Below are positions 2,098 through 16,775 of a DNA stretch of 64,000 nucleotides, piece after piece. How positions within the stretch are numbered: position 1 is the first letter of the stretch; every line of letters starts with the position of its first letter. A model generated the notes under the pieces. The model saw only the letters and a list, made by a program, of their open reading frames with translations, was not told the DNA's origin and did no database searches. Made by a program: the position numbers and the translations under genes. This DNA is from Oscillospiraceae bacterium (GTDB lineage Bacteria > Bacillota > Clostridia > Oscillospirales > Oscillospiraceae): assembly GCA_902774015.1 (NCBI GenBank), contig CACYHB010000001.1, forward strand, positions 192,587 through 256,586. Reading direction: 5' to 3'.

Positions 2098-2141
2098 GGC
2101 ATAGTTTAAGATCGAATCACAACAAAAAAGGAAATCCTGCA

Positions 2142-2171
2142 ATGAGACGCATTCATCTGTCCCCACCCTGA
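2142..2171 (+). CDS. Putative prfC leader peptide MRRIHLSPP
   Basis: A nine-codon reading frame (ATG to TGA) encodes MRRIHLSPP. AAGGA lies at 2128-2132, nine bases before the ATG, a good ribosome binding site. It ends Pro-Pro directly before UGA, a context known to slow peptide release. Bases 2133-2139 (AATCCTG) are complementary to 2201-2207 (CAGGATT), next to the prfC GGAG at 2208-2211. Bases 2167-2175, which include the leader stop codon, can instead pair with 2196-2204. The peptide and its role are inferred; no known leader of this sequence is recalled. Confidence 0.5.
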   Translation: MRRIHLSPP

Positions 2172-2218
2172 GAAAGGCTCCTGCCGTTATATAGTTTTTT
2201 CAGGATTGGAGAATTTTT

Positions 2219-3811
2219 ATGGCTGATTTACGAAAAGAAATTGAAAGGCGCCGGACTTTTGCGATCATTTCGCATCCGGACGCCGGCAAAACGACATTGA
2301 CCGAGAAGCTGCTTCTCTACGGCGGCGCGATTCAATTGGCCGGCTCTGTCAAAGGAAAGGCCACGGCGCGCCATGCAGTGTCCGACTGGATGGAGTTGGA
2401 GAAGCAGCGCGGCATCTCCATCACCTCTTCTGTCATGCAGTTTGAATACGAGGGATACTGCATCAACATCCTGGATACCCCCGGCCACCAGGATTTCTCA
2501 GAGGACACTTACCGCACCTTGATGGCGGCGGATTCCGCCGTCATGGTCATTGACGCCGCAAAAGGCATTGAGCCGCAGACGCGCAAGCTTTTCAAAATCT
2601 GCGCCATGCGGCATATCCCCATTTTTACTTTTATCAACAAGCTGGACAGGGAGGCCCGCAGCCCCTATGAACTGATGGAGGAGCTGGAGAACGAGTTCGG
2701 CATCGGCACCTATCCCATGAACTGGCCCATCGGCTGCGGCCAGGATTTCAAGGGCGTGTATGACCGGGAGAAACGGGCGATCCTTGCTTTCAATGAGTTT
2801 CACCGGGGTACCAGCCGCATCAGAGCCATTGAATGTACGCTGGACGAAACGGAGAAGCTGGATGAACTGATCGGTACCCGCCTTCGGCAGAGCCTTTCGG
2901 ACGACATCGAGCTGTTGGACGGCGCGGGTTATGAGTTTGATCTGGAGGAAGTGCGACGCGGCCGTCTGAGTCCTGTGTTCTTCGGTTCTGCCCTCAATAA
3001 TTTCGGTGTGGAGCCTTTTCTGGAGAACTTCCTGAAACTCACGATGCCGCCGCTGCCGCGTATCTCCGGCGATGACATCATAGATCCCTTTGACGAGCGT
3101 TTTTCCGCTTTCGTTTTCAAGATCCAGGCCAACATGAACAAGGCCCACCGTGACAGGATCGCTTTTATGCGTATCTGCTCCGGCCGCTTTGAGCGCGACA
3201 GGGAATACTTCCATGTGCAGGGCGGAAAAGCGCTGCGCCTTGCGCAGCCGCAGCAGCTGATGGCGCAGGACCGCGCCATCATCGACGAGGCATACGCAGG
3301 TGATATCATCGGAGTATTTGATCCCGGTATTTTTTCCATCGGCGATACCATCTGCGAAAAGGGGATGAACGCGAGTTTTGAAGGCATCCCCACCTTTGCG
3401 CCGGAGCATTTTGCCGCTGTTGAGCGCATCGACACGATGAAGCGCAAGCAGTTTGAGAAGGGCATCATGCAGATCGCCCAGGAGGGCGCTATCCAGATCT
3501 TCCACGAGCCCCATACAGGCGTGGAAGAGGTAATCGTCGGTGTGGTCGGCGTGCTGCAGTTTGAAGTGCTGGAATACCGGCTGAAAACCGAGTACGGCGT
3601 AGATATTCGACGCCGTTCCATGCCTTATGAGCTTGTCCGCTGGGTGGACAGCGAGGGGATCGATATTCGCTCTCTGAATCTGACCAGCGATACCAAGTGG
3701 GTGCAGGATTTTCGCGGAAATGACCTGCTGCTGTTTACTTCCCAGTGGTGCATTAACTGGGCGCTGCAGAAGAATGAGGGACTGCGGCTGCGTGAGTTCA
3801 ACAGAGATTGA
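2219..3811 (+). CDS. prfC: Peptide chain release factor 3
   Basis: RF3 is the translational GTPase that removes RF1/RF2 from the ribosome after peptide release. The 530-residue length is typical. The G1 loop HPDAGKTT is at residues 19-26, the G3 motif DTPGH at 86-90 and the G4 motif NKLD at 140-143. The N-terminal ISHPDAGKTTLTEKLLLYGGAIQ and the C-terminal LQFEVLEYRLKTEYGVD segment are family hallmarks that separate it from EF-G. GGAG lies seven bases before the ATG. It probably has its own promoter and a leader with a small reading frame, and the next gene follows after 12 bases. Confidence 0.97.
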   Translation: MADLRKEIERRRTFAIISHPDAGKTTLTEKLLLYGGAIQLAGSVKGKATARHAVSDWMELEKQRGISITSSVMQFEYEGYCINILDTPGHQDFSEDTYRTLMAADSAVMVIDAAKGIEPQTRKLFKICAMRHIPIFTFINKLDREARSPYELMEELENEFGIGTYPMNWPIGCGQDFKGVYDREKRAILAFNEFHRGTSRIRAIECTLDETEKLDELIGTRLRQSLSDDIELLDGAGYEFDLEEVRRGRLSPVFFGSALNNFGVEPFLENFLKLTMPPLPRISGDDIIDPFDERFSAFVFKIQANMNKAHRDRIAFMRICSGRFERDREYFHVQGGKALRLAQPQQLMAQDRAIIDEAYAGDIIGVFDPGIFSIGDTICEKGMNASFEGIPTFAPEHFAAVERIDTMKRKQFEKGIMQIAQEGAIQIFHEPHTGVEEVIVGVVGVLQFEVLEYRLKTEYGVDIRRRSMPYELVRWVDSEGIDIRSLNLTSDTKWVQDFRGNDLLLFTSQWCINWALQKNEGLRLREFNRD

Positions 3812-16529: not shown

Positions 16530-16775
16530 CGTATATAGGCGCTGTGAAGGATAAGAGTACGTGTTTTGCGGATCTCAGAGAGGAAGCGGACGGTGTGAGC
16601 TTCTGTGATGCGGCACGGAAAGTCGATCTGGAGCGCCCGGAGGGAAGGGAAACTGTGTAGCTCCGGCGTCAGGCTCGCGTTAAGAGCTGTCAGAGTGCCG
16701 CTGTAAAGCGGAATTCAGGTGGTACCGCGGTAGTTTTATCGCCCTGAGACGGAAACGTCTCAGGGCGTTTCTGAT
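16530..16775 (+). ncRNA. T-box leader of valS (specifier GUC)
   Basis: The T-box AGGTGGTACCGCGG is at 16717-16730 and can pair with the acceptor end of uncharged tRNA. Stem I shows the AGAGAG bulge (16577-16582) and the GGTGTGAG distal element (16592-16599). Aligning the 3' side with the alaS leader places the specifier GTC (valine) at 16622-16624, before GATCTGGAGC. The terminator is an 11-bp stem (16741-16751 with 16756-16766) closed by GAAA. Uncharged tRNA-Val is expected to favour the antiterminator and turn on valS. Confidence 0.94.

Follow-up and report, generated by a model that had tools for sequence, protein, structure and literature searches.

Why should a nine-codon reading frame that ends in two proline codons and a stop codon lie directly upstream of the gene for peptide chain release factor 3 (RF3)? 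The question is raised by a 64,000-nt stretch of an Oscillospiraceae genome, referred to here as the window. In it, prfC runs on the forward strand from the ATG at position 2219 to position 3811 and encodes a protein of 530 amino acids, which profile matches identify as RF3 (TIGR00503, 660.8 bits with a cutoff of 466.95; NF001964, 733.7 bits with a cutoff of 473). The leader frame, on the same strand at 2142 to 2171 (ATG AGA CGC ATT CAT CTG TCC CCA CCC TGA), encodes MRRIHLSPP, starting with the ATG at 2142 and stopping with the TGA at 2169 to 2171, 47 nt before prfC. It has its own Shine-Dalgarno (SD) sequence, AAGGA at 2128 to 2132, in which AGGA ends 9 nt 5' of the ATG, and the SD of prfC is GGAG at 2208 to 2211. 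A sequence-only reading of the locus had picked out this frame and its ribosome binding site, which our analysis confirms, and had proposed that they form an autoregulatory circuit for termination. A C-terminal proline slows release. To our knowledge, prfC has not been described as autoregulated, and both the role of RF3 in living cells and the way its level is set are poorly understood.

Frames of this kind recur in the window's genus. From 102 genomes, after removal of duplicates and of contigs with fewer than 120 nt upstream, we obtained 88 readable prfC leaders, and 18 of these carry a short, SD-preceded upstream open reading frame (uORF) of 5, 9, or 15 codons that ends in Pro-Pro-stop. 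The nine-codon form is found in the window and in L010, L011, L013, L174, L129, L133, and L175; the five-codon form in L025, L027, L032, L033, L034, L036, L119, and L132; and the fifteen-codon form in L134 and L170. The residues ahead of the Pro-Pro-stop end vary, and the nine-codon bodies are unlike one another (MRRIHL, MKKPRF, MKLTRT, MKLTRL, MKHFRL, MNRTNP, MKRKLL, and MICMKT). The end itself is kept through synonymous change, with CCA, CCG, or CCC as the first proline codon, CCA, CCC, or CCT as the second, and TGA or TAA as the stop, so the conservation of frame and end on which the sequence-only reading had staked its proposal is found in these 18 of the 88 leaders. The prfC tree places the window in a clade of seven rows (97, starred): five have a nine-codon frame ending Ser-Pro-Pro, which has been lost in the other two, L009 and L012. 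All eight five-codon rows together make up one side of a branch (support of 92 among labeled rows). The fifteen-codon frame of L134 and L170 opens like prfC (ATGAC(T/G)GATTGGCATAAA versus ATGACTGATCTGCAAAAA) and resembles a duplicated prfC start region.

A second kind of frame occupies the same place in the prfC leaders of relatives, namely, an SD and then AUG or GUG directly abutting a stop codon. Such start-stop frames were curated in 31 prfC leaders spanning 12 genera: 7 in the window's genus and 24 in 11 others (g14, g31, g33, g55, g56, g62, g66, g72, g74, g96, and g97), the latter count (24/134) not being a frequency, since several leaders were fetched from known-positive genera. Both kinds of uORF end 43 to 78 nt upstream of prfC. 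Of 41 cases in which an SD, CC, and RTG occur together at −90 to −40 before prfC, 30 have a stop as the very next codon; after SD plus RTG in control leaders, a stop comes next in 2 of 66. These 30 frames start with ATG (24) or GTG (6) and stop with TAA (21), TAG (7), or TGA (2). A CC within 4 nt 5' of the start is present in 30/31 curated start-stop leaders versus 81/344 control gene starts. In the classical release assay, the one used for the first studies of RF3, the substrate is fMet-tRNA set against a stop codon.

Most of the prfC leaders that we examined carry neither kind of frame, which makes the uORF a lineage trait of one family of gut-dwelling bacteria rather than of Oscillospirales at large. 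A first even draw across the family gave start-stop frames in 9/68 leaders and free-standing Pro-Pro-stop frames in 0/68, and under the strict filter given below neither kind appeared in 55 leaders from other families of the order and class. One Pro-Pro-stop frame lies outside the genus, in L346 (genus g52), where MLTAAFRRGITPP-UAG follows GGAGG.

Several other arrangements were seen ahead of prfC. In eight relatives (L194, L197, L198, L221, L337, L339, L364, and L334), a long upstream gene, open for 192 to 240 codons before its stop, itself terminates in Pro-Pro-stop 49 to 109 nt before prfC; seven of these genes have a related C terminus (..RLSPP or AAMCPP), and that of L334 is a different gene. 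Such ends could substitute for the uORF or could be a coincidence. uORFs ending in Pro-Ile-UAG (L255 and L366) or Pro-His-UAG (L256 and L260) follow GGAGG or AAGGAG, all four with UAG as the stop. In the start-stop position, L168 and L193 have a three-codon M-x-Cys-UGA frame (MPC and MRC), in L168 behind the same GGAGGGCAAAACC. Among four named relatives outside the counted set (L074, L075, L059, and L067), two Lachnospiraceae MAGs have ATG-CCC-TGA ahead of prfC, a Ruminococcus MAG has ATG-TGA behind GGAGG, and a Ruminococcaceae MAG has TTG-AAG-CCA-TGA.

Short frames are common, and the whole pattern might be chance, an annotation artifact, or a reflection of genome relatedness. The genus members are indeed related, and uORF labels cluster on the prfC tree. 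We therefore give the counts under a strict filter, which asked for a 4-nt SD at 5 to 12 nt, an ATG or GTG start, at most 20 codons, and a stop 40 to 80 nt upstream of the gene. In the genus, 15/88 prfC leaders had a Pro-Pro-stop frame and 7/88 a start-stop frame; in other genera of the family, the counts were 5/134 and 26/134, respectively, in a set enriched by the partial choice of later stretches from known-positive genera. The resulting 33 start-stop leaders were reduced to 31 by dropping L251, whose match lies within a 329-codon upstream frame, and L338, which by eye overlaps a promoter-like −10. The 20 Pro-Pro-stop leaders were reduced to the 15 of the genus plus L346 by removing the ends of long upstream genes (L197, L198, L221, and L339). 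L033, L134, and L170 miss the strict SD rule and enter only the count of 18/88, and loci L038 to L117, which partly repeat G-handle genomes, were left out of the counts.

Under the same filter, leaders of neighboring genes gave 0/299 for each kind. Among 672 control gene leaders, of which prfA and frr loci contributed 113 and the window 29, there was no Pro-Pro-stop frame and one start-stop frame; control genes came from a simple open reading frame caller, not from annotation. Shuffling the 222 family prfC leaders in 60 rounds yielded a mean of 0.05 Pro-Pro-stop frames (maximum, 1) and 1.05 start-stop frames (maximum, 3). A looser filter does find start-stop frames in 4/344 control leaders, with 0/344 for Pro-Pro-stop, and finds each kind in 18/181 prfC leaders. 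A strict start-stop module pattern had 10 matches in 300 family genomes; 5 were ahead of prfC, 1 was ahead of recA, and the other 4 fell within long frames. A backwards control of this pattern likewise matched in some genomes. The recA case is GGAGGGGTCCCCATGTAA in L442, 70 nt upstream of a gene that we take to be recA-like from its N terminus. Given the neighboring-gene, wider-control, and shuffle counts, the spread of start-stop frames over 12 genera, and the occurrence of three Pro-Pro-stop lengths in one genus and one such frame in another, chance or artifact is almost certainly not the explanation.

The uORF also goes with a longer leader. A promoter motif drawn by eye from the genus leaders (TTGCNTTT, 10 to 11 nt, TATGNTAANAT) is represented in the window, on the forward strand, by a −35-like upstream element, TTGCTTTT, at 2069 to 2076, and an extended −10-like element, TATGATACATT, at 2087 to 2097. 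These positions were not among the hits of a generic sigma-70 promoter scan of the window. The spacing of the motif is the same whether genus leaders have a uORF (23) or lack one (35), and the end of the −10 match lies 87 to 121 nt from the prfC ATG in 23/23 scored leaders with a uORF versus 28 to 67 nt in 32/35 scored leaders without one. A leader with a uORF is therefore longer by about 60 nt. In the three exceptions without a uORF, the motif lies 107 (L009), 155, and 161 nt from prfC, and L009 has retained the long leader and is missing the frame. From the promoter position, the short frame with its own SD directly 5' of prfC would share the prfC transcript, and in the window the uORF would lie about 40 nt from an mRNA start placed by the motif. 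MRRIHLSPP-UGA is a genuine frame, not a chance occurrence, and has a leader of its own downstream of a conserved promoter.

How might such a frame act on prfC? Segments with the capacity to pair with the ribosome site of prfC are located at the uORF stop or within about 17 nt of it. In the window, the 5' arm of an SD-hiding helix predicted by RNAalifold consists of the Ser-Pro-Pro-stop codons (2161 to 2170, as 2161 to 2165 plus 2167 to 2170, forward strand), and the 3' arm (2201 to 2211, as 2201 to 2204 plus 2207 to 2211, forward strand) includes the prfC SD. Across the five leaders with Ser-Pro-Pro-stop, 97.8% of cells are paired, and there is one compensatory change (A2165-U2207 in the window versus G-C in the four others); the pairing is thus kept, but its covariation does not go beyond shuffles (98/500). 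When all eight nine-codon leaders are taken, 77.8% of cells pair. In the eight five-codon leaders, a segment past the stop pairs with the prfC SD and start codon in 87.5% of cells, a value reached by 8/500 shuffles. RNAalifold proposed a helix between the uORF end and the prfC site unaided in both the five-codon class and the Ser-Pro-Pro nine-codon class, and covariation counts were weak across the aligned classes. The sequence-only reading had drawn a switch among three CCTG segments, each able to pair with a CAGGA next to the prfC SD. All of these motifs are present (CCTG at 2136, 2167, and 2180; CAGGA at 2201), but only the segment at 2167 to 2170, inside the Pro-Pro-stop codons, belongs to the helix kept in four close relatives, and the 2180 segment was not found in those four.

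Long-segment pairing had a mean z of −1.03 in 39 leaders with a uORF, −0.11 in 331 control genes, and −0.22 in 142 prfC leaders without a uORF; it was weak in the start-stop class (mean z of −0.56 over 16 leaders). In the window by itself, neither uORF-to-SD pairing (z of 0.14) nor whole-leader folding (z of 0.56; 141/200 shuffles at least as stable) beat shuffles. RNAalifold found no common helix in eight aligned start-stop leaders, and a common fold for that class was rejected. For the 12 nt preceding RTG in that class, pairing with the prfC site has a mean energy of −8.73 kcal/mol, compared with −4.67 for shuffled segments (0/200 as low) and −7.58 with swapped partners (permutation P value = 0.001), in a test that is post hoc because the segment was chosen after these sequences had been read.

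The Ser-Pro-Pro leaders, whose proline codons themselves form the arm that pairs with the SD, invite the thought that CCN CCN is merely an anti-Shine-Dalgarno sequence and that the frame is not translated for any purpose. We consider this very improbable, since the five-codon arm lies past the stop and yet Pro-Pro-stop is kept in 8/8 leaders with synonymous changes, the fifteen-codon frames keep Pro-Pro-stop without SD pairing of that kind, and start-stop frames vary both of their codons yet keep the start adjoining the stop.

We then predicted SD access with the region up to 11 nt beyond the uORF stop treated as occupied. Access to the prfC SD rises upon occupancy in 7/8 nine-codon and 7/8 five-codon leaders (14/16); it drops in the window (0.22 to 0.01) and in L033 (0.49 to 0.43) and is unchanged in the two fifteen-codon leaders. 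Among 16 start-stop leaders it goes up in 7, mostly slightly, goes down in 8, and is equal in 1. By simple folding, neither the window itself nor the start-stop class shows opening, and the homeostatic sign, with occupancy opening the prfC site, is supported by folding in the Pro-Pro-stop classes only.

At the level of sequence, the comparison establishes the frames, their ends, their place, their lineage distribution, their specificity to prfC, and the conserved pairing in two Pro-Pro-stop classes; stalling at the uORF, its dependence on RF3, and the direction of control are what we infer from them. We lean, with moderate confidence, toward translational attenuation: prfC translation would be set by the clearance, with the help of RF3, of a uORF that should be hard to terminate. 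Termination would be slow at the uORF, either at Pro-Pro-stop or at a start-stop frame in which fMet-tRNA faces the stop at once, and a segment that can pair with the prfC SD or start codon would sit at the uORF stop, just past it, or immediately 5' of the start-stop codons. At low RF3 levels, ribosomes would linger at the uORF stop and cover or disturb this segment, leaving the prfC site open for the synthesis of more RF3; when RF3 is plentiful, the uORF would be cleared fast, the helix would re-form, and prfC would be turned down. The 43 to 78 nt between the uORF stop and the prfC ATG would leave room for both ribosomes. If occupancy does open the prfC site, the loop is homeostatic. Passages of PMC5373646 report that loss of RF3 in Escherichia coli raises stop codon occupancy 2.5-fold and alters leader-controlled genes, and passages of PMC10192219 report that RF3 with RRF promotes drop-off of short peptidyl-tRNAs. 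The sign of an occupancy effect depends on the RNA, since in E. coli expression fell when stop occupancy was prolonged at the trp and ivb leaders (PMC5373646).

Frames with unrelated peptides, at one site before one gene and sharing a stop that should be slow to release, are most economically explained by a leader that measures RF3-aided clearance. Whether this extends to a family-wide termination homeostat, in which RF3-dependent ribosome clearance is assayed within the prfC leader itself, by a minimal start-stop or Pro-Pro-stop uORF, and the two kinds have been interchanged in evolution, seems to us evenly balanced. The uORF may instead sense translation more broadly, through RF1/RF2, RRF, EF-P, or the supply of initiation, with RF3 as one output and with EF-P or RF1/RF2 limiting in the Pro-Pro-stop leaders. 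Pro-Pro-stop also involves EF-P, and start-stop frames engage initiation and termination only and use all three kinds of stop. This account is possible though unlikely, given that in the genus no start-stop or Pro-Pro-stop frame meets the filter among the 113 control leaders called in 60 prfA and frr loci and that a Pro-Pro bond cannot matter in start-stop leaders.

A further account keeps the sign of RF3-dependent attenuation but needs no RNA switch: a ribosome near the 5' end would keep the mRNA from being degraded, or a ribosome that escapes recycling would move on and restart at prfC. It fits the weak or absent pairing of the start-stop class by folding and the closeness of the window uORF to the putative mRNA start, at a distance of about 40 nt. 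PMC5972666 reviews how ribosomes reinitiate downstream of short and start-stop uORFs, mainly in eukaryotes. We hold this account to be decidedly unlikely, as it leaves both the conserved pairing of the Pro-Pro-stop classes and the anti-SD signal before start-stop codons unexplained. Control of prfC by RF3-aided clearance of its uORF is retained as the best reading. Compared with the sequence-only reading, it loses the switch as drawn and the TnaC-like arrest and is strengthened by the start-stop frames of relatives; as a sequence-based inference, the core idea of RF3 autoregulation remains, in a wider form than first proposed.

Start-stop and Pro-Pro-stop are chemically different poor substrates for termination, and both are paired with the RF3 gene. 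An RF3 gene whose leader holds a frame that should be hard to finish suggests that the cell senses and adjusts its own termination capacity, and these leaders may point to the reaction by which the cell itself judges termination and may offer ready-made reporters of RF3 activity. If this is true, the peptide-free start-stop frame would be a natural bacterial sensor and, as far as we know, these would be the first conserved start-stop uORFs controlling a bacterial gene.

Among known systems, a described RNA family was rejected for this leader, as Rfam gave no match over it; the two matches in the window at the gathering threshold are a T-box leader elsewhere (16535 to 16749; RF00230, 119.9 bits) and a tRNA. 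A transcription attenuator was rejected for the window leader on the count of 0 terminator-like sites at 1950 to 2300. In open-license literature on prfC or RF3 leaders, uORFs, and bacterial start-stop frames, we found no description of a prfC leader. The prfB frameshift resembles our case in that expression of a release factor gene senses termination efficiency, but there the in-frame stop lies inside the gene; a prfB-type frameshift was rejected for prfC, which is one open frame (2219 to 3811) with its signal in a separate uORF 43 to 78 nt upstream.

The tnaC leader shares the Pro-stop end, termination as the controlled step, and the influence of RF3. Arrest of the TnaC type calls for a peptide of tunnel length whose residues ahead of Pro-stop are conserved, and TnaC has a longer arrest peptide, depends on tryptophan and tunnel contacts, and controls transcription termination. 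The prfC leaders differ in that their peptides are of 1, 5, 9, or 15 residues with unconserved bodies and no terminator-like site was found in the window leader region, and the nascent-peptide arrest suggested by the sequence-only reading was rejected, as the nine-codon bodies differ and five-codon and start-stop forms exist. In CutF-cutO, as described in passages of PMC9973294, a stalling-like motif with a C-terminal proline upstream opens a stem-loop that shields the next SD; that system differs in sensing copper by an exported protein, through a frame that is not minimal, ahead of a gene that does not encode a release factor. Attenuators of the erm type are alike in having a short leader frame with its own SD; in them a paused ribosome alters the pairing that hides the next SD, as would happen in the prfC leaders under the attenuation reading. 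Unlike these, the prfC leader involves no drug; its supposed signal is the speed of termination, the gene that it would control encodes a termination factor, and its frame can be as short as a start codon followed by a stop.
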